A stretch of 47,184 nt of DNA. It comes from Nitrospinaceae bacterium. Its GTDB lineage: Bacteria; Nitrospinota; Nitrospinia; Nitrospinales; Nitrospinaceae. The position numbers and the translations under genes are program-made. The notes below the pieces were generated by a model. The model saw only the letters and a list, made by a program, of their open reading frames with translations, ran no database searches and was not told the DNA's origin. The DNA is taken from assembly GCA_029261395.1 (NCBI GenBank), contig JAJDBJ010000055.1:1-47184 (forward strand), written 5' to 3'. Of this stretch, positions 5,358-23,296 are shown piece by piece (position 1 is the first letter of the stretch; each line of letters begins with the position of its first letter).

Positions 5358-6169
5358 TCCGACCCGTTTCCGAAGTGCAGAAGAATCCAACCCGCGAGGC
5401 CTTTCTGGCCGTTGGTTTCGCGGTTGCCGCCATTCCAGATGGCAACGGCCATTGGCGTTGACCCGGTAAACTGCACGTCATGCTCGTCCGCATTCGTTAA
5501 TTTTCTCTTGAACACGACTTGCCAACCCTTGTCGGTGCGCAATCCCTTGCCGGAAACATTCTGTTCGTCCTGGCGCGTGAGAGTACTGAATCCCTCGGCG
5601 TTCAAATCTTCGACGGGAGATAGTGTCGCCGCTGAATCCTTCTTTGCCGTATCGGCCGTCACCTGACGCACCGCTTTCCACTGCCAGATATTGACCGGAA
5701 ACCCTTCACCGCCCATGGTGATCGGCGGTACTTCTTTATTGGAGTTGAGCGGAAACATGATCGCCGCCTGATCCGTATACAGACGCGACTGGCCGATGCC
5801 ATTGCTCATCGAATCATCCTGCCATTCCAGACGAACCGCGATCTGCGTCTCCGTCCGCGCAACACTGATGAGAACTTTCTTGACGAAAGGATTGGGCCAC
5901 TGCGGGTTGGTGATCAACTGCGGTCCCAAGTCGATAGTCGTTTTCGCTGGCCCTTGTGGGGAATTCCAAAACTTGGAATCAGGCGACAATGGGATATCGC
6001 CGGAAAACTTTTTGACTTTCAATTGCGAGGTGCAGTCGCCCTCTTCCAGACACTTGGAATACTGTGTGTCCGAAGCTCCGCATCCGGAAACAGCTATGAG
6101 CACGCACAACAAACCTACCATCAGGCAGCATCTATCCAAAATCCATCGAGAAAACGAAAAGTTCAACAT
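5354..6169 (-). CDS. Lipoprotein with ethylbenzene-dehydrogenase-type haem b domain (NxrC/EbdC-like)
   Basis: The N-terminus is a lipoprotein signal ending in the lipobox VSGC (Cys30), so the mature protein should be membrane-anchored outside the cytoplasm. The remainder resembles the EB_dh family, the haem-b gamma subunits of periplasmic molybdoenzymes: WPNPFVKKVLISVARTET, AVRLEWQDDS, then ITMGG and FPVNIWQWKA. EbdC binds haem b through one Met and one Lys. The natural candidates here are Met152 (ITMGG) and Lys256 (NGQKGLAGW). It follows an M16 peptidase gene by 17 bases on the same strand. No molybdenum subunit is in the window, so its partner is unknown. It could be an electron carrier for a nitrite-oxidoreductase-type enzyme (inference) or a stand-alone haem lipoprotein. 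Confidence 0.7.
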   Translation of the reverse strand: MLNFSFSRWILDRCCLMVGLLCVLIAVSGCGASDTQYSKCLEEGDCTSQLKVKKFSGDIPLSPDSKFWNSPQGPAKTTIDLGPQLITNPQWPNPFVKKVLISVARTETQIAVRLEWQDDSMSNGIGQSRLYTDQAAIMFPLNSNKEVPPITMGGEGFPVNIWQWKAVRQVTADTAKKDSAATLSPVEDLNAEGFSTLTRQDEQNVSGKGLRTDKGWQVVFKRKLTNADEHDVQFTGSTPMAVAIWNGGNRETNGQKGLAGWILLHFGNGSD

Positions 6170-6186
6170 GACTTATAGGGTTAGAG

Positions 6187-7500
6187 TTAAAATTCGTGGA
6201 TTAACCGTTCAAGCTCAAGGTCGGATTGCGGCGTGTGTGGACCGACCAGCACAACGTTGAGATTGCGCGCCTTAAAAACCGACTCGGCTATTCGGCGGAT
6301 ATCTTCGAGGGTGATCGATTCAACGATATCCTTTTCTTCTTCCAGGGTGATGACTTTGGAATACAACTCGGAAAACCCATACCGCGACACCTGCTTGCCC
6401 GGCTCATCCAATTCCATCGCAAGATCGTACATGTATCTTTTTTTAACGTGATCCAGTTCCTCCAGCGTGACACCGGAATCTAAAAACTTTTTGATCTCGC
6501 TGAAAATCACCTTGATAATGGCCGCCACTTTTTCCGGACGCACAGACACGTCAAAATCGATGGTCCCGGTATCCGCCAGACTGGTGGCGCGGCATTCCAC
6601 CGAATAGGCCAACCCCTGCTCCTCCCGCAGAACCTTTTGCAGACGAGAACTGACACCATCGTCGAAAAGACGGCTGATCAAACTGGCGGCGTAATAATCC
6701 GGATGATTGTAGGAAACCGACCGGAAACAAATTTGCACCTGGTCCTGGCTGTCGACATCTTCCTGAACACGGAATTGCGGTTCTGTTTGATCTTCGCGCA
6801 CGCTATTCAAAAAACAATCTTTTGAGACGGCGGTGCCCCGGCGCTGAATTTTACCGAAATACGTTTGCGCCAGTTGATGGAACTGCGATTGCGCCAGGCA
6901 TCCCGCTCCGACCAACACCATGTTGGAGGGACAATAGTATTGATCGAAATAGTCCCGAAGCATCGCGGTATCGATGGATTTGATTGACTCCTCGGTGCCA
7001 ATCGTCGGCAAAGCCAGCGGGTTGTCCTTGTACATCAGGTCGCAGGCAACGTTATTGATATCCACATTTTCACCCTCGGCGTTCAAATCTTCCAGATACT
7101 CTTCCAAAATGATTCCGCGTTCCAGTTCGATGCCGGGAAACGTAGGATCGGTAAAAAATTCAGCAAACAATTCCATTCCGCGCTCCAATTGGTCATAATG
7201 CGGACTGAAACCGTAATAGGTGTACTCGCTGAGGGTGGAGGCGCGCAGGTCACGGCCGATCTTCTCGAATTCCAGGTTGAGGGAAATGGAATCCGGATAT
7301 TTCCGGTTGCCCCGGAACAGCATGTGTTCCAGAAAATGGGAAATCCCGTTATTCTTCTTATTTTCAAAACGCAGACCGGCACGAACGAACATGGCGACCT
7401 CGGCCGTGTGGATATGAGGCATCTCCACCGCCACCACCGTCAGGCTGTTGGCCAGCGTGCTTCGAAAACTTTTAATTTCAGTATCGGTCTGAAGTCTCAA
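6187..7500 (-). CDS. M16 family zinc peptidase (processing-protease-like)
   Basis: Metallopeptidase of the pitrilysin/insulinase group. The inverted zinc motif HFLEH, in GISHFLEHMLFRG, is followed by the downstream glutamate in RGIILEEYLED. The C-terminal half carries the usual KKRYMYDLAMELDEPGKQVS region. Taking a TTG at 7500 (CAGG five bases upstream) gives 437 residues, the usual single-unit M16B size. The only upstream ATG-type extension, to 7587, adds unconserved residues and overlaps the divergent gene at 7580, so I favour TTG. It is the first gene of a two-gene unit with the haem lipoprotein, 17 bases downstream. Its substrate cannot be told from sequence. Confidence 0.88.
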   Translation of the reverse strand: MRLQTDTEIKSFRSTLANSLTVVAVEMPHIHTAEVAMFVRAGLRFENKKNNGISHFLEHMLFRGNRKYPDSISLNLEFEKIGRDLRASTLSEYTYYGFSPHYDQLERGMELFAEFFTDPTFPGIELERGIILEEYLEDLNAEGENVDINNVACDLMYKDNPLALPTIGTEESIKSIDTAMLRDYFDQYYCPSNMVLVGAGCLAQSQFHQLAQTYFGKIQRRGTAVSKDCFLNSVREDQTEPQFRVQEDVDSQDQVQICFRSVSYNHPDYYAASLISRLFDDGVSSRLQKVLREEQGLAYSVECRATSLADTGTIDFDVSVRPEKVAAIIKVIFSEIKKFLDSGVTLEELDHVKKRYMYDLAMELDEPGKQVSRYGFSELYSKVITLEEEKDIVESITLEDIRRIAESVFKARNLNVVLVGPHTPQSDLELERLIHEF

Positions 7501-7579
7501 GGAAACCTGTATTATAAATTTAAATAATAAAGTTTGTATTATCTCACAAATGGTGCTCCCGCATCCCGGAATAAAATCT

Positions 7580-8218
7580 ATGGACAACGAAAACTGGACT
7601 TCTAAAAATTACGATCTGGCGAATACTTATATTGCGGAGCACGAAGAAGAAGTCCAAACCCGCGCTGTGATCGATTGCGGCAAGGGGGTTCATGCCATCC
7701 TGCCGAAAGGCTTACCGGCACTGAAAATCCGTTTTCACGGATTGTTCATGATCGCCCCGCTACCGCTATTGATGGCCTGTGTCATTTTCCTTCCTCTGTC
7801 CGGATTCCTTGGGGAATGGGAAGTTAACGTCACCACCCTGGGCATTTCCCTGCTGTGCCTGCTGATGCTGGCTGGCCTGATACGGGTGATTCTGGTGATG
7901 CTGAAAGTCCGCGACATGTTTCCCCGTGCATACTTCGTCACGCTGGGACCCGAGGGACTCGCCATGCATTTTTCACGCATCCATTTTCCGGCGGCTCATC
8001 CTAACGCTTATATCACATGGAAAGATGTGGAGTCGGTTCAAAGAACTACCAGCTTCTTTTTGCCGGCGCTATTGCTGGGTCGGCTAGCGGTTCCCGCCCT
8101 CCAGATTGTTTCACGCCAGGGACCGGTCGTCACCATCCCCATGCTTCAGCCGCCCTCCATTCTTGAAGAAGAATTCAGCCAGGCGGAAACGTTGATACAG
8201 CAGAACCTGCCGGGCTGA
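7580..8218 (+). CDS. Small integral membrane protein, two predicted helices, unknown function
   Basis: The product is 212 residues. A hydrophilic N-terminus is followed by two hydrophobic segments (roughly residues 52-76 and 83-107) and then a soluble C-terminal domain whose pattern (YFVTLGPEGLAM, ITWKDVESVQ) recalls bacterial PH-like domains. That likeness is weak. A longer start at 7550 exists, but ATG 7580 gives the natural MDNENW start and clears the AT-rich divergent promoter region shared with the M16 gene. The stop is only seven bases from the dnaE stop on the other strand. No function assigned. Confidence 0.7.
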   Translation: MDNENWTSKNYDLANTYIAEHEEEVQTRAVIDCGKGVHAILPKGLPALKIRFHGLFMIAPLPLLMACVIFLPLSGFLGEWEVNVTTLGISLLCLLMLAGLIRVILVMLKVRDMFPRAYFVTLGPEGLAMHFSRIHFPAAHPNAYITWKDVESVQRTTSFFLPALLLGRLAVPALQIVSRQGPVVTIPMLQPPSILEEEFSQAETLIQQNLPG

Positions 8219-14714: not shown

Positions 14715-15779
14715 ATGCATAAATCCTCTCTCACCCACTCGGGCTTAACCATTCTGGTTCTTTTCGGATTATTTGCTTCCGGTTGCTCTCTGTTCAGAGC
14801 GGACACTCTGGAAAATGCGGTGAGATCCGAAAACCTTGAGAAAGTTCAAAGCCACTTGGACCAAGGCGCCAACGTTAACAAAGCAAACGCGGAAGGCAAA
14901 ACCCCCTTGCATATCGCCGCCGAGGATGGATCTAAAGGAGCGGCGGGGATGTTGATTGCAAAAGGCGCCAATGTAAACGCCAAAGACAATCAGGGTCGTA
15001 CTCCCCTGCACCTTGCCACCCAGGAAGGACGCCCCTCCTTAGTGGACTATCTCACCGACAAGGGAGCCGATTTAAACAGTCAGGACAAGGCCGGCGGAAG
15101 TCCTTTGCATTATGCGGTACTCAATGAAGAATACGACATCGCCTTTATGCTCACCTTAAAAGGCGCGCTGGTGGACATCAGGGATCAGAAAAAATGGACG
15201 CCGCTTTACCTGGCCTCCCTGAACAACCTGCCAAAATATGTAGAACTGTTGATCGAAAAGGGCGCCGAAGTCAACCCTGCAAGCGGACCGACACCTTTGA
15301 TTGCGGCCATCTGGAATGACCACAGTGAAGTGGTCAGGATGCTTCTGAAACACAAAGCTGCAGTCCAGGGCAAACCCAATGCCATCAAAACACCCATTCA
15401 CATAGCCGCTGAAAAAGGGTTCACCAAGTCCGCCCAAGCGTTGCTCGATTTTCAAGCCGATCCCTACGTCAAAGATCGCTCAGGGAAGTCTCCCATTTAC
15501 TACGCCACCCAGAATGGCCACGCCAAAATGGTCAAGTTACTCATCAGCTATGGCGAGGACATCACCCAACCGATCCCTCTAGGCACCACCCTGTTGCACC
15601 TGGCGGCGGAAAAGGGACATACGGATGTGGTCGAACTATTGATCGAAAAGGGTGCCGTACTGAATGCCCATAATGCTCAAGGAGAATCGCCTTTGGATGT
15701 CGCCATTCGCTATGGCCACAAAAAGGTTGCCGATATTCTCACAGAGACGGCTATCGAGCGAAGAAAAATTCAAAACTAA
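14715..15779 (+). CDS. Ankyrin-repeat lipoprotein, paralogue 1
   Basis: The 354-residue protein has a lipoprotein signal ending in FASGC, so it is expected to be anchored in the envelope. Nine ankyrin units follow, each with a TPLHIAAEDG-type core: TPLHIAAEDG, TPLHLATQEG, SPLHYAVLNE, TPLYLASLNN, TPLIAAIWND, TPIHIAAEKG, SPIYYATQNG, TLLHLAAEKG, SPLDVAIRYG. The solenoid fills the whole mature protein, which indicates protein binding rather than catalysis. The next gene is a same-length paralogue with units in the same order, evidence of tandem duplication. No effector domain or secretion signal other than the lipobox is seen. Confidence 0.9.
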   Translation: MHKSSLTHSGLTILVLFGLFASGCSLFRADTLENAVRSENLEKVQSHLDQGANVNKANAEGKTPLHIAAEDGSKGAAGMLIAKGANVNAKDNQGRTPLHLATQEGRPSLVDYLTDKGADLNSQDKAGGSPLHYAVLNEEYDIAFMLTLKGALVDIRDQKKWTPLYLASLNNLPKYVELLIEKGAEVNPASGPTPLIAAIWNDHSEVVRMLLKHKAAVQGKPNAIKTPIHIAAEKGFTKSAQALLDFQADPYVKDRSGKSPIYYATQNGHAKMVKLLISYGEDITQPIPLGTTLLHLAAEKGHTDVVELLIEKGAVLNAHNAQGESPLDVAIRYGHKKVADILTETAIERRKIQN

Positions 15780-15902
15780 AAGAATCACATCTCCACAGAT
15801 TGAGACTCAGGGAACAGGCCGTTTTTCAACAGAATGCTGGAGCGGCCCTGTCTCCACTGAGACTTCAGCCTTCCTGTATTACTTTCCTTTCTCAAACCTT
15901 CA

Positions 15903-15931
15903 TTGACAATAATTTTTCTATCCTTTAAATT
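15903..15931 (+). promoter_or_regulatory. Candidate promoter of the second ankyrin gene
   Basis: A consensus TTGACA at 15903-15908, a 17-base AT-rich spacer and TAAATT at 15926-15931 precede the paralogue by about 37 bases. The 14-base block ACCTTCATTGACAA is shared exactly with the first copy's upstream region. Confidence 0.55.
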
Positions 15932-15967
15932 GAACCAGCTTAAAACTTACAAGGGAGTTGGAGTCCT

Positions 15968-17029
15968 ATGAAAAAATTTCCTCTTGTCCTACCCGGCTTT
16001 ACTTTTTTGATCCTTTTTTCTTTCCTCGCTACGTCCTGTTCCCTAATCAAAACATCTTCTCTGGAAACGGCCGTCCAATACAAAAACATTGAGGAAGTAC
16101 GACGCCATCTGGATGAAGGCGCAAACGTTAATCAAAAAGACAGCAACGGTCAAACCCATCTGCACCACGCCGCGCAGAGCGGAAACACGGAAGTCGCTCA
16201 AGTCCTCATTGACAGAGGGGCAAATGTCGATTCCAAAGATAATGAAGCCCGAACGCCTCTGCATTTGGCCGCTGAGACCGGCCACGCGCCCATGATCGAC
16301 CTGCTGGTCACTCACGGAGCCGATATCCACAGCCAGGACACCCATGGCCGCACTCCTCTACACTATGCCGTTCTTGAGGCCAGAAACGAAGCGGCCCTGA
16401 TGCTGATTTCAAAGGGGGCGGTGGTGGATGCCAGAGACAAAAAGGGTTGGACACCGCTTTATCTGGCCAGCGTGAATGACCATCCAAGAATGGTTGCACT
16501 ATTGGTCAACAAGGGAGCCCGTGTACACCCTGCAACAGGTCCTTCGCCTTTGATGGGAGCAGTGATGGAAGGCCATACCCACGTGGTGAGAGCGTTGCTC
16601 AATAACAAATTCCTGGTCCACGGACCACCCGGCGCCGCCACCACTCCGCTCCATCTGGCCGCAGAAAAAGGTTATCCCGATATCGTTCGATTGTTGCTTG
16701 AGAAAAAGGCAACTCCCAACCGCAAGGATGCCAAAGGGAAAACACCTCTTTATTATGCAATCTACAATGACCACTTCCACGTCATCCAAGAGCTGGTCGA
16801 CCACGGGGTAAACGTAGACCAGGAAACCCCGGAAGGTACGCTTCTCCACTTGGCGGCCGAAAAAGGACATGTAGGTGCGGCCAGCGCCCTGATTCGAAAA
16901 GGTGCCAAACTGGAATTGCAAAATAGCGAAGGAAAAAAACCTCTGGATGTCGCTATCAACAATCGAAATCAAAAAGTAGCTGATTTACTCGTGCGGGAAA
17001 CGATTAAGCTAAAAGAAGTCGGAAAATAA
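15968..17029 (+). CDS. Ankyrin-repeat lipoprotein, paralogue 2
   Basis: The 353-residue protein has a lipoprotein signal ending in LATSC and nine ankyrin units: THLHHAAQSG, TPLHLAAETG, TPLHYAVLEA, TPLYLASVND, SPLMGAVMEG, TPLHLAAEKG, TPLYYAIYND, TLLHLAAEKG, KPLDVAINNR. It matches the preceding gene unit by unit, with near-identical junctions such as TLLHLAAEKGH. The 188-base gap between the copies holds its own promoter. The two may bind different partners, since loop residues vary while core residues are kept. Function is unknown. Confidence 0.9.
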   Translation: MKKFPLVLPGFTFLILFSFLATSCSLIKTSSLETAVQYKNIEEVRRHLDEGANVNQKDSNGQTHLHHAAQSGNTEVAQVLIDRGANVDSKDNEARTPLHLAAETGHAPMIDLLVTHGADIHSQDTHGRTPLHYAVLEARNEAALMLISKGAVVDARDKKGWTPLYLASVNDHPRMVALLVNKGARVHPATGPSPLMGAVMEGHTHVVRALLNNKFLVHGPPGAATTPLHLAAEKGYPDIVRLLLEKKATPNRKDAKGKTPLYYAIYNDHFHVIQELVDHGVNVDQETPEGTLLHLAAEKGHVGAASALIRKGAKLELQNSEGKKPLDVAINNRNQKVADLLVRETIKLKEVGK

Positions 17030-17069: not shown

Positions 17070-18164
17070 TTACGCAGCCTCCTCTTTATTTGTCGGAAAT
17101 TTTTCATACCAGCCGCGTGTGCTGTTGACCAGCCGTACCACGGATAACATCACGGGCACCTCCACCAGCACGCCAACCACCGTGGCCAATGCGGCCCCGG
17201 ACTCAAACCCAAAAAGGCTGATGGCCGTGGCGACCGCCAGTTCGAAAAAGTTGCTGGCTCCGATGAGAGCTGAAGGACCGGCTACACAGTGAGCCACCCC
17301 CAATTGCCGGTTTAATAAATATGCCAAACCGGAATTGAAGTAAACCTGGATCAGAATTGGTATTGAAAGGAGCACGATCACCATCGGCTGGTTGATTATT
17401 TGTTCTCCCTGGAAACCAAATAATAAAACCAGGGTAACAAGAAGCGCCAAAAGTGAAAGCGGATGGAGAGTATTAATAATCTTTTCCAGGGCCTCTTCAC
17501 CCTTTTCCTTCACCACCCAGTTTCGAAACAGCTGGGCCACAATAACCGGCACGACAATATAAAGGGCGACCGACAGGAACAGCGTTTCCCAAGGAACTAT
17601 AATTGAGGACAGGCCCAACAACAATCCAACAATGGGTGCAAACGCGAAAATCATGATGACGTCATTCAACGCAACCTGGCTCAAGGTGAAGTTGGGCTCC
17701 CCCTGGGTAAGATTGCTCCAGACAAAGACCATGGCTGTGCAGGGAGCCGCCGCCAATATAATGAGACCGGCGATATAGGAGTCGATTTGATCCGCAGGCA
17801 GGTAGTCGGCAAACAGATTGGAGATGAACACCCAGCCCAACAGGGCCATGGAAAATGGTTTGACCGCCCAGTTGATAAAAACCGTGACGCCGATACCCTT
17901 CCAGTGGGAACGAACCTCGTGCAAAGCACTGAAATTTACTTTCAGGAGCATGGGGATGATCATGATCCAGATCAATACCGCCACCGGGATGTTAACGCGG
18001 AAAATTTCAGCGTTACCTATTGTCTGAAACATACCCGGAAAAAAATGCCCCCAGACGATACCAACCAAAATGCATAGAAATACCCAAAGGGTTAAGTAAC
18101 GCTCAAAAACTCCAAGGGTGGTGGCTTGGGTCGGTTTCGAAGTGATTGCGGACTGACTACTCAT
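17070..18164 (-). CDS. acr3: ACR3-type arsenite efflux transporter
   Basis: Inner-membrane permease of the BART superfamily that exports arsenite using the proton gradient. About ten hydrophobic segments are visible. The signature cysteine segment AAPCTAMVFVWSNL in the middle of the protein marks the ACR3 family, as does VALNDVIMIFAFAPIVG. I chose ATG 18164 (MSSQSAITSK). A TTG at 18197 would add 11 residues. It is the second gene after arsR (137 bases), same strand, so arsenite should induce it through ArsR. No arsC reductase is next to it, so arsenate reduction would have to be encoded elsewhere. Confidence 0.93.
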   Translation of the reverse strand: MSSQSAITSKPTQATTLGVFERYLTLWVFLCILVGIVWGHFFPGMFQTIGNAEIFRVNIPVAVLIWIMIIPMLLKVNFSALHEVRSHWKGIGVTVFINWAVKPFSMALLGWVFISNLFADYLPADQIDSYIAGLIILAAAPCTAMVFVWSNLTQGEPNFTLSQVALNDVIMIFAFAPIVGLLLGLSSIIVPWETLFLSVALYIVVPVIVAQLFRNWVVKEKGEEALEKIINTLHPLSLLALLVTLVLLFGFQGEQIINQPMVIVLLSIPILIQVYFNSGLAYLLNRQLGVAHCVAGPSALIGASNFFELAVATAISLFGFESGAALATVVGVLVEVPVMLSVVRLVNSTRGWYEKFPTNKEEAA

Positions 18165-18300
18165 TTTTTTGCCATAGTGTTTTATTCGATTTCCCAAAGA
18201 CTCTCTTAAAAGATTGCAACGCTCTCCGCGTTAAATTGCCAGCGCAAAGAAAAAGAGCGTTTCAAGTTTTCTGGAACAAGTCAGTCTCTATTCCTCTGGT

Positions 18301-18630
18301 CTAGTCATCCCTTTCACAAGGACTCGAGGTCACACAACCCTCCGGTTCCCCCTGACAACAGTTCTCTGTGAGGTAGGCCATGAGCGTATTCATTCCTTCA
18401 TAATTGGCGGAATAAAATAAAGTTCTTCCTTCCCGCCGGCAATGAATCAGCCCCGCATGCTTCAATTGATTGAGATGAAAGGACAGAGTGGATAGGGGAA
18501 TATCTATTCGCTCTCCAATTTTCCCGGCGGGGATTCCGGTTTTTCCCACCTGTACCAGAAATCTGAAAACCTCCAGGCGGTGTTCCTGAGCTAGAGCTGA
18601 TAACGCTGTGACTGCATTCAATATTTTCAT
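18301..18630 (-). CDS. arsR: ArsR-family arsenite-responsive repressor
   Basis: Winged-helix repressor of 109 residues. The recognition-helix region is IPLSTLSFHLNQLKHAGL and the wing is RREGRTLFYSAN. It lacks the ELCVCDL metal box of plasmid ArsR. Instead Cys91, Cys92, Cys99 and Cys105 cluster at the C-terminus (ENCCQGEPEGC), like the C-terminal CC-x5-C site known from Acidithiobacillus ferrooxidans ArsR. The ATG at 18630 has no ribosome site and lies inside a long palindrome. A TTG at 18666 would extend it by 12 residues but would place the promoter -35 inside the gene. It heads the arsR-acr3 unit. Confidence 0.9.
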   Translation of the reverse strand: MKILNAVTALSALAQEHRLEVFRFLVQVGKTGIPAGKIGERIDIPLSTLSFHLNQLKHAGLIHCRREGRTLFYSANYEGMNTLMAYLTENCCQGEPEGCVTSSPCERDD

Positions 18631-18652
18631 ATTTCTAGAAATATCAAAATAT
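18621..18652 (-). promoter_or_regulatory. Candidate ArsR operator, 32-bp near-perfect palindrome
   Basis: The central 16 bases (18629-18644) read ATATTTCTAGAAATAT, a perfect palindrome. Extended to 18621-18652 the two 16-base arms differ at a single pair. It covers the arsR start codon and the probable -10 element. Long AT-rich dyads at the promoter are what dimeric ArsR repressors bind, so autoregulation is likely. Confidence 0.65.
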
Positions 18653-18666
18653 AGCCGAAAGGTCAA
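18638..18666 (-). promoter_or_regulatory. Candidate arsR promoter
   Basis: On the minus strand TTGACC (18661-18666) and TATTTC (18638-18643) are 17 bases apart. Transcription would begin close to the ATG at 18630, leaving almost no leader. The -10 lies inside the palindrome. Confidence 0.4.
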
Positions 18667-20509: not shown

Positions 20510-20992
20510 ATGGGCAAACGAAAATCCAACAAAAAAAAGAACTCCAGCGGAACCTCATCCGCACACCCGTCAAAATGGACCGCTACGGCGTTTATCGTCG
20601 TTATTTTAATGGTGCTGGGCGGAGTGTACGTTTACACCAAACCCGCAGGACGCGCCACAGCCTCCAATCCCGCTCCGGCAACGGGCCAACTGGTCGAAAA
20701 CAAGCCGGTACTGAGTCACGCTCTGTTTTCAGGCAAAACCGCACTGGCTTATAAGTATGCGGCTGAAATCCCCAAAGTCATCGACAGCCAGTTTTGTTAC
20801 TGCTACTGTAAAAAAGATCACGGGCACAAAAGCCTGTTGACCTGTTTCACTAGCACACACGGATCCAAATGCGACGTCTGTATAAATGAAGTCATCTACG
20901 CCTACGAGTTGTATCAGGAAGGCAAAAGCCTCGATGAAATTGTAGTTGCCGTAGATAGGAAATTCTATCGACCCTATAAAAGACACCTGTAA
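20510..20992 (+). CDS. CYCXC-motif membrane-anchored protein
   Basis: The 160-residue protein has a lysine/serine-rich N-terminus, one membrane span (about residues 25-43) and an extracytoplasmic domain bearing FCYCYCKKDHGHKSLL, with further cysteines in LLTCF and SKCDVC. The cysteine spacing and DHGH-SLL run match the PCYCGC/CYCXC family, thought to be a redox or metal-binding module; its role is not established. Here the family's usual Pro-Cys is Phe-Cys. It sits eight bases before a TlpA-like thioredoxin, which could reduce its cysteines (inference). Confidence 0.75.
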   Translation: MGKRKSNKKKNSSGTSSAHPSKWTATAFIVVILMVLGGVYVYTKPAGRATASNPAPATGQLVENKPVLSHALFSGKTALAYKYAAEIPKVIDSQFCYCYCKKDHGHKSLLTCFTSTHGSKCDVCINEVIYAYELYQEGKSLDEIVVAVDRKFYRPYKRHL

Positions 20993-21000
20993 TCATTCCC

Positions 21001-21564
21001 ATGGAACAAACACTACAAAGAAAGCCCGCCCACATATTCATCCCGTACGCGATTCTGTTCACCGTGCTGTTCGCTGCTTTAATCGCGTCGGTCAACAAAG
21101 TGGAATTGAAACCGTTTGAAACGGAGTATCCGCAGGAGAGTTTCATCGCTCCCGGCTTTAAACTACCGTCTCTTTCCGGCGGCAACATCGACCTCAAGGA
21201 CTATCGCGGCAAAGTGGTGTTCATCAATTTCTGGGCCACCTGGTGCGCCACCTGCAAGGTGGAAATGCCCTCCATGCAAAAAGTGTATGACCAGTTTAAA
21301 GACAGGGGCTTTGAGATGCTGACCATCAGCGTCGACAAGGATCAGAGCCTGATCCAACCTTTCATGGAAGAGTACAAACTCACCTTTCCGGTTTTGCTGG
21401 ACCCGGAAAGCGATGTGGCCAAAAAAAATTACAAGACCACCGGCGTACCGGAAACCTTTATCATCAACAAACATGGGATCATCGTGCACAAGGCCATCGG
21501 TCCCCGCGATTGGGCGACGGATGACGCCATGGCGGCCTTCGCGCAACTGGTGGAGCAATCCTGA
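21001..21564 (+). CDS. TlpA/ResA-like membrane-anchored thioredoxin
   Basis: The 187-residue protein has an N-terminal membrane anchor (about residues 13-30) and an extracytoplasmic thioredoxin fold. The active site is WCATC in VFINFWATWCATCKVEMPS, with the cis-proline TGVPETFI. Proteins of this group reduce disulfides outside the cytoplasm, often on apocytochrome c or on copper-site proteins. It is sandwiched between the CYCXC gene (8 bases) and a small membrane gene (1 base), ahead of cytochrome b, which suggests the cluster handles redox assembly. Confidence 0.92.
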   Translation: MEQTLQRKPAHIFIPYAILFTVLFAALIASVNKVELKPFETEYPQESFIAPGFKLPSLSGGNIDLKDYRGKVVFINFWATWCATCKVEMPSMQKVYDQFKDRGFEMLTISVDKDQSLIQPFMEEYKLTFPVLLDPESDVAKKNYKTTGVPETFIINKHGIIVHKAIGPRDWATDDAMAAFAQLVEQS

Positions 21565-21565
21565 C

Positions 21566-21991
21566 ATGAAAATTTTCAGCTCCTTAATTCTCATCTCATT
21601 TTTAGCGACCGCCGGCCCCACTCTACTGTGGGCGCATGGCGGGAGTCACGACGCGGAACCGAAAAAAGAAGAGACCACACTGCCGAAACTTCCTGAGGCA
21701 ACCCTCGACATGAAAGCCACTGAATCGGGAGCCAACGAATACGGCGTGAGCGATTCCATGGACGCGTTCGAAATGGAAGAAGTGGGGGGTGGCGGTCCCT
21801 TGTGGGGTGAAGAGCAACAACAAAAGATGCCCGAGCACGAAGGCCACGACATGTCGCAGGTGAAACATGTGGAGCCCGCTGAACACGAATGGATTTCCAC
21901 CTCACAAAAAGGCTACGGATGGGCGGCGGCAGTGACCCTATTTTCAGGTGCACTGTTCGGGTTTTTGACTCTCAGACGCCCGTGTGAATAA
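21566..21991 (+). CDS. Secreted His/acid-rich protein with C-terminal membrane span
   Basis: The 141-residue protein starts with a signal peptide ([17 protein letters not shown], cleavage near LLWAHG). The mature part is rich in His, Glu and Met, including [12 protein letters not shown] and [13 protein letters not shown], and ends with a hydrophobic segment, [17 protein letters not shown]. The chosen ATG lies one base after the tlpA-like stop. The His/Met content could bind a metal such as copper (inference). No family recognised. It is probably co-translated with its neighbours. Confidence 0.65.
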
Positions 21992-22023: not shown

Positions 22024-23037
22024 ATGGCCAACGGACTCCTCCAGACCATCAAGGAACGCCTCGGACTCGAAGTACTCGAATACGAAGTTCCGGAACACTC
22101 CAACTCATTCAAATACTCGCTCGGTGGCATGACGCTCAGCGCGTTTACGCTTCTCGTCGTAAGCGGGGCACTCCTCGCCCAGTTTTACGTGCCCGATCCC
22201 GACCGCGCCAACCCCAGCATCCATTACCTGGTCGACCAGGTATGGCTCGGCTGGTTCCTGCGCGGTGTTCATTTCTGGTCGGGCGACGTGCTGACCATCA
22301 CCCTGCTCCTGCACATGATCCGGGTGGTGTTCACTGGATCGTACAAGGCGCCGCGCGAGGTCAACTGGTACGTCGGTGTCGGATTGCTGTTGATGATAGT
22401 CGGCCTGCTGTTCACCGGCACGGTACTGAAGTGGGATCAGGAAGCGTACGAAGCATTGGCGCATTTTCTGTGGGTCGCGGAACTCATGGGCATTCTCGGC
22501 GTGCCGCTCACCGAACAGTTTGCGCAGGGCGTGCCGTTGTTGAGCCGCATCTACATGTGGCACATCTCCCTGCTACCCCTGCTCACCATTCCGTTAATCG
22601 GACTGCACCTGTTTTATATCAAGTATCATAAATTGTCCCCGCTCCCGGAACAGCCGGAAAGTGGGAGGAAGATTCCTTTCAGTCGTCACCTGGTGTATCT
22701 GAACCGCGCCGCGTCCGGTGTGTTTCTTTTGATCTTCGTGCTGGCGTTGACCATCGCCCCGCCGCTGGGAGATCCGCCGGTCGTGGGAATGGAAGTCACC
22801 AAACCACCGTGGCAATTTGTCTGGTTGTACGCTCTGGAAAATTTATGGGTACCGTTTATAGTGATTGCCCCGCTACTGTGCATCCTGTTTCTGCTGGCGG
22901 TGCCGATCATCGACCGTGGACCGGAAACGCATTGGAGAAAACGTCCCATCGCCACCGCAGTGCTGGTGTTCTGTATCGTGCTGGCCATCGCGCTCATCCT
23001 GTGGGGCAAGTTCACCACCATGACGCACAGTATGTAG
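22024..23037 (+). CDS. Cytochrome b/b6-type haem-bearing membrane protein
   Basis: The 337-residue protein has two haem-binding histidine pairs: GVHFW to LLLHMIR, with 13 residues between, and YMWHIS to GLHLF, with 14 between. The 13/14 spacing is the b6 type, not the mitochondrial 13/13 type. A subunit-IV-like part with about three further spans follows. Where the quinol-site PEWY motif is expected the sequence reads PPWQ ([11 protein letters not shown]). No Rieske or cytochrome c1 gene is in the window. It could be part of an alternative quinol-oxidising or quinone-reducing complex with subunits elsewhere. It follows the small His-rich gene by 32 bases. Confidence 0.88.
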
Positions 23038-23044
23038 GGATGTC

Positions 23045-23296
23045 ATGATCACCATTGAGGTCATGACGAAAAAAGATTGTTGCTTATGTGACGACGCTAA
23101 AGAAATCATCGAACAAGTCATCGCTGAGATGCCAGCGGAACTAAAGATGACCGATATCGAATCCGATCCCGGACTGTTTGAACGCTATCAAGACAAAATC
23201 CCCGTCGTCCTCATCAACGGCGAGGAAAGCTTTGTATACAAAGTCCACCCCATCACCCTGCGCAAGAAGTTGGAGAAGTTATTGAATAGCAATTAG
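23045..23296 (+). CDS. Glutaredoxin-like protein (DUF836 type)
   Basis: The 83-residue thioredoxin-fold protein begins with strand ITIEVMTKKDCCLC. The CCLC active-site motif provides the C-x2-C pair, and KIPVVLING supplies the cis-proline. These small proteins reduce disulfides using glutathione or thioredoxin, and DUF836 members are poorly characterised. It begins seven bases after the cytochrome b stop and probably closes this gene cluster. Confidence 0.82.
   Translation: MITIEVMTKKDCCLCDDAKEIIEQVIAEMPAELKMTDIESDPGLFERYQDKIPVVLINGEESFVYKVHPITLRKKLEKLLNSN

Follow-up and report, generated by a model that had tools for sequence, protein, structure and literature searches.

A bc-type cytochrome b without a linked Rieske gene in a relative of marine nitrite-oxidising bacteria

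An orphan cytochrome b and its operon

The stretch of DNA that we analysed (the window; 47,184 nucleotides) comes from a genome that the names of its close relatives place in the Nitrospinota. At positions 22024–23037 on the plus strand it holds a genuine open reading frame of 337 amino acids that encodes an orphan bc-type cytochrome b with about seven transmembrane (TM) helices, an assignment based on the ORF call, Pfam, a search of solved structures, Foldseek and a phylogenetic tree. The protein scored 103.7 bits against PF00033 (Cytochrome_B; cut-off 27.2, E = 1.5e-29), which places it in that family, and it also matched Cytochrom_B_N_2 (1.2e-26); Cytochrom_B_C was matched only at 0.0077. 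The nearest solved structures were cytochrome b6 chains (E = 4.5e-31), and Foldseek searched with an AF2 model returned bc1 cytochrome b (E = 7e-9). The first-pass annotation had described a b6-type cytochrome; the kinship with b6 stands, but the protein is more than b6 alone, as the b6 and subunit IV parts, split in b6f, are fused here. Alignment predicts the haem ligands to be H83 and H97 in helix B (13 residues between; 22270–22314, plus strand) and H180 and H195 in helix D (14 between; 22561–22608, plus strand), in agreement with the two b6-type His pairs noted earlier and with the spacing expected of a bc-type cytochrome b. All four are invariant in 16/16 orphan sequences. The protein thus shares with cytochrome b6/subunit IV of b6f and cytochrome b of bc1 the fold, the four haem histidines, the WDQ of the cd1 region and a PxW Qo motif. 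The closest named NCBIfam model was that of ExtP (NF040969; E = 2.9e-46), a b-type cytochrome of a Geobacter selenite/tellurite operon, but the score of 157.9 bits is well below the cut-off of 290, and the ExtP cluster, unlike the orphan locus, encodes a Rieske protein (ExtO), a separate membrane protein (ExtQ) and multihaem cytochromes (PMC5877670).

The cytochrome gene lies in an operon whose order, CYCXC protein, TlpA, single-TM protein, cytochrome b and glutaredoxin, is almost invariant in the Nitrospinales. The CYCXC gene was kept at 44/44 loci that were long enough, TlpA at 42/48, the single-TM gene at 45/51 and the glutaredoxin gene at 43/46. The first gene (20510–20992, plus strand) encodes a 160-residue membrane-anchored periplasmic protein of the CYCXC/PCYCGC family, which scored 113.4 bits against NF041379 (cut-off 90) and also matched PF13798. 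Its invariant residues form C-Y-C-Y-C, HxH and CxxC motifs, hydropathy indicates one N-terminal TM segment, and the gene is single-copy in its own genome; a search of the PDB with its AF2 model (pLDDT 73) gave no fold match. The second (21001–21564, plus strand), at a conserved position, encodes a TlpA/ResA-like membrane-anchored thioredoxin with a WCATC active site, which satisfied the general AhpC-TSA model (PF00578; 1.5e-31) and fell short of the equivalog models for ResA (132.1 of 170 bits) and TlpA (86.5 of 230). Downstream of the cytochrome, positions 23045–23296 (plus strand) encode an 83-residue glutaredoxin-like protein (PF05768; 9e-17) with a CCLC motif, in which hydropathy found no TM segment. 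The cytochrome had been described as flanked by TlpA-like and glutaredoxin-like genes; this is correct for the glutaredoxin gene, which follows directly, but the TlpA gene is separated from the cytochrome by the single-TM gene (21566–21991).

These partners resemble or match the TlpA/ResA thioredoxins and the CYCXC (seleno)proteins. CYCXC homologues carry UxxC redox motifs (PMC13188914), and elsewhere TlpA reduces apo-CuA subunit II and Sco and serves CuA-site assembly (PMC9145763). The literature searched did not link either family to a bc-type cytochrome b. Elsewhere in the window, about 2 kb upstream of the operon, genes that we named from sequence reading as an ArsB/ACR3-like transporter and an ArsR-like regulator occupy 17070–18666 (minus strand), and two adjacent lipoprotein-like ankyrin-repeat proteins are encoded in tandem at 14715–17029.

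The single-TM protein (21566–21991, plus strand) matched no Pfam or NCBIfam model. Hydropathy points to a signal peptide, an acidic periplasmic part containing His and Met, and a C-terminal TM segment. This topology is that of cytochromes c1 and f, but the protein lacks CxxCH and we claim no homology. Its predicted mature N-terminus reads HGGSH, and an H-x(2-3)-H motif stands at the predicted cleavage site at most of the Nitrospinota loci that were read, with a similar arrangement at loci of the KSB1 phylum; the tally used a pattern that requires His and is illustrative, not a frequency test. Such an N-terminus resembles a metal site. A counterpart of this gene lies upstream of cytochrome b in every lineage, and the Streptomyces protein is without the N-terminal His.

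Clade-specific residues in the quinol-oxidation region

At the position of PEWY the cytochrome reads PPWQ (residues 261–264, encoded at 22804–22815), as the first-pass annotation had pointed out. The same motif is present in 48/48 Nitrospinales sequences with a readable motif, and 4/4 members of a deeper Nitrospinota family have PPWM. This invariance argues that the motif is neither a sequencing error nor due to chance. Relatives outside the phylum have PPWN, PLWM or PPWI. Alignment of the 16 orphans with 12 comparison cytochromes b, which were chosen for convenience (11 have an adjacent Rieske gene and one, L129, has none listed beside it), identified seven residues that are invariant in the former and absent from the latter: T133, K136, E140, E143, H147, T259 and E272. 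Five of these fall in a cd1-region signature, FTGTVxKWDQExxEAxxH (residues 130–147; 22411–22464, plus strand), which begins with FS in members of the KSB1 phylum, and E272 lies downstream of PPWQ (together 22804–22839, plus strand). All seven are in the cd1 and ef regions, which we take to be the quinol-oxidation site of bc complexes. Since the other invariant residues of the orphans are common, at least in part, to ordinary cytochromes b, the P-side quinol pocket is, judged by alignment, the part that changed.

The significance of the missing PEWY glutamate had been overstated. Qo motifs are known to vary, PEWY and PVWY among them. In the same genome, a cytochrome b6/subunit IV pair with an adjacent Rieske gene reads K-A-P-W-Y, and the bc1 complexes of Legionella and Alteromonas, also with an adjacent Rieske, read PVWY. 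Given that Glu-less motifs occur in ordinary complexes, we rejected the absent Glu as the key sign of unusual chemistry. Nor does the loss of this proton-accepting residue imply that no acceptor is left, since E140, E143, H147 and E272 leave the region not short of acids. Stronger evidence for a non-canonical site comes from the loss of both Qo tyrosines together with the gain of K136, E140, E143, H147 and E272. The Tyr of PEWY is replaced by Gln, Met, Asn or Ile and that of GYxLPW by Thr133, so that the tyrosine pair characteristic of a Rieske/cytochrome b complex is gone. E140, E143 and H147 follow one another at i, i+3 and i+7, which would suit a shared face of a helix. The geometry of the site in the AF2 model was set aside, as pLDDT is under 50 at Qo.

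Search for a Rieske partner

As stated in the first-pass annotation, the window contains no Rieske or c1 gene. We searched about 0.8 Mb of sequence, made up of the window and 63 related loci, with two patterns that together detected 14/14 controls, and found no Rieske motif of a membrane protein near any relative; the single pattern match, outside the window, was a soluble NirD-like protein. A Rieske gene beside any relative would have spoken against the earlier proposal of a non-canonical, Rieske-free bc-type cytochrome b, which is therefore supported. Linked genes for c1, f or a multihaem cytochrome c were also absent from the examined loci, except for one deeper Nitrospinota locus (L097), where the gene just upstream of the single-TM gene (5722–7746, minus strand) encodes 674 residues with about 26 CxxCH motifs.

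These results bear on whether the cytochrome could run an ordinary Q cycle after all, in a complex supplied with a Rieske protein from another locus. The retained fold and four haem ligands would fit such a complex, and so would the Qo motif, since other complexes that lack its Glu have a Rieske protein. A search of the assembly of its own genome, on which our genome-wide statements rest, gave five Rieske matches: two belong to separate cytochrome b operons, one with PEWY on contig C67 and one with APWY on contig C29, and the other three are soluble proteins. Each membrane Rieske thus sits with its own cytochrome b and none is spare in this genome (97% completeness). Because the relatives examined have no membrane Rieske nearby either, and because the cd1 region is remodelled and neither Qo tyrosine is left, borrowing is very improbable. 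The operon on C29 (locus L106), which encodes the Rieske, b6 and subunit IV proteins of the APWY complex, also includes a protein with eight CxxCH motifs.

Distribution of the family

A protein search found relatives in 60/61 related genomes, mostly as near full-length copies of the cytochrome gene, and a profile search at a strict threshold placed the family in 62/77 genomes of the phylum and in nearly all of the order. A maximum-likelihood tree of 28 sequences separates the 16 orphans from the 12 comparison cytochromes at a branch supported at 100/99. Near full-length relatives with 43–45% identity are carried on plasmids of Pseudarthrobacter and Streptomyces, where a one-TM gene abuts or overlaps the start of cytochrome b. 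In three genomes of a KSB1-titled phylum the cytochrome gene is paired with that of the single-TM protein and no Rieske gene is linked; on two of the three short contigs no other redox genes accompany the pair. The family therefore occurs in at least three phyla, in a search that was centred on its own phylum; viral contigs gave no relatives. One further contig (L085) from a KSB1-titled MAG was rejected as a true KSB1 member: its flanking genes match those of the window, and it is likely a Nitrospinota contamination.

The neighbours differ among lineages. TlpA lies close to the cytochrome at 3/4 loci of the deeper Nitrospinota family, CusB- and TolC-like genes, named from sequence reading, lie near two copies, and the start of a TolC-like gene is near a third on a short contig. 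The actinobacterial plasmid copies lie in regions with heavy-metal P1B ATPases, of the Cu type in Streptomyces. We did not see TlpA or CYCXC genes beside KSB1-phylum or actinobacterial members, which indicates that the thiol partners are not universal. This argues against an oxidative direction, in which periplasmic thiols would be oxidised and electrons passed to quinone in a DsbB-like role on a bc fold. The thiol operon and the binding of quinone by known members of the fold would suit such a role, but TlpA/ResA relatives are usually reductants, and we consider it improbable. The mixed neighbourhoods across phyla might also suggest a relic that serves assembly or regulation and transfers no electrons; we give this very little credence, since 16/16 sequences retain every haem ligand and every clade-specific residue.

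The metal genes raise the alternative of a quinol-dependent reductase of Cu(II) or another metal, or a metal-homeostasis module, for which the thiol proteins of Nitrospinota would be secondary recruits. The N-terminal H-x(2-3)-H of the single-TM partner, the single helix face suggested by E140, E143 and H147, the Cu-type ATPases beside the Streptomyces copies and the CusB/TolC-like genes beside the deeper Nitrospinota copies are all consistent with this role. Against it, the thiol operon of the Nitrospinales includes no metal pump, the N-terminal His is missing from the Streptomyces partner, and the metal site on the partner is a prediction; we regard this alternative as possible yet rather unlikely.

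Proposed function

The protein is a membrane cytochrome of the bc-complex family with no Rieske and, by alignment, a rebuilt quinol pocket, and its gene shares a tightly conserved operon with genes for periplasmic thiol-redox proteins. The common view of Rieske/cytochrome b complexes is of a single machine whose cytochrome b depends on the Rieske protein. Without Rieske, we know of no high-potential one-electron acceptor for bifurcation, and a Rieske-free cytochrome b would not be expected to bifurcate electrons. Our best reading, which we hold tentatively, is a non-bifurcating quinol-linked carrier of electrons to periplasmic thiols or copper. Its core would be a two-protein unit of the dihaem cytochrome b and the single-TM protein, the latter with a metal-binding-like mature N-terminus in most lineages, and haems bH and bL would link the quinone pool to a periplasmic redox partner. 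The likely direction would be quinol oxidation on the cytoplasmic side, then membrane potential-driven transfer from bH to bL, and on to periplasmic disulfides or Cu(II). In Nitrospinota the partners would most likely be the linked TlpA and CYCXC proteins, supporting the assembly of copper sites or c-type cytochromes. A role as a copper or thiol reductase is the best guess because of these linked genes, the UxxC motifs of CYCXC homologues and the part that TlpA plays in CuA-site assembly. The Cu-type ATPases around the Streptomyces copies and the CusB- and TolC-like genes near deeper Nitrospinota copies also speak for this reading, as do the conservation of the operon, the separate clade with its specific residues and the lack of a spare membrane Rieske.

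Several observations count against this carrier role. TlpA and CYCXC genes were not seen next to the cytochrome in the KSB1 phylum and the actinobacteria, electron transfer from menaquinol to thiols is uphill without a membrane potential, the plasmid context may be biased to metal resistance, and the Streptomyces single-TM protein is without the N-terminal His. DsbD/CcdA-type proteins occur throughout the phylum, so the reductant for TlpA may come from them; for the same reason we rejected the idea that the cytochrome replaces DsbD/CcdA. A more specific proposal, about which we are doubtful, is that these proteins form a widespread class of bc-type cytochrome b that has so far gone undescribed: its Qo pocket, rebuilt as an acid/His site, would act with the single-TM, N-terminal-His protein as a membrane potential-assisted quinol:copper or quinol:disulfide reductase.

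The 2013 genome paper on Nitrospina gracilis (PMC3578206) mentions a second cytochrome b of the b/b6 type that is unsplit and encoded outside the Rieske operon. It is probably the orthologue of the orphan cytochrome; the main text of that paper says nothing of its motif, partner genes, relatives or function. In the literature searched, which included few subscription-journal papers, we found no account of this operon or its motif, of the clade as a whole or of what the cytochrome does. The gene is nearly universal in the Nitrospinota, a phylum that includes major marine nitrite oxidisers; the probable role of its product is to supply electrons to thiol or metal chemistry in the periplasm and not to a classical Q cycle. 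A lineage spread over at least three phyla that has retained the two haems but no Rieske, and that departs from related cytochromes mostly at the quinol pocket, would show another use of the fold, and would offer a natural system that separates quinol chemistry from bifurcation. In the P1B ATPases encoded near the actinobacterial plasmid copies (L112, 11329–13917; L113, 13211–15718; L111, 1–2017), CPD replaces the usual CPC/CPH.
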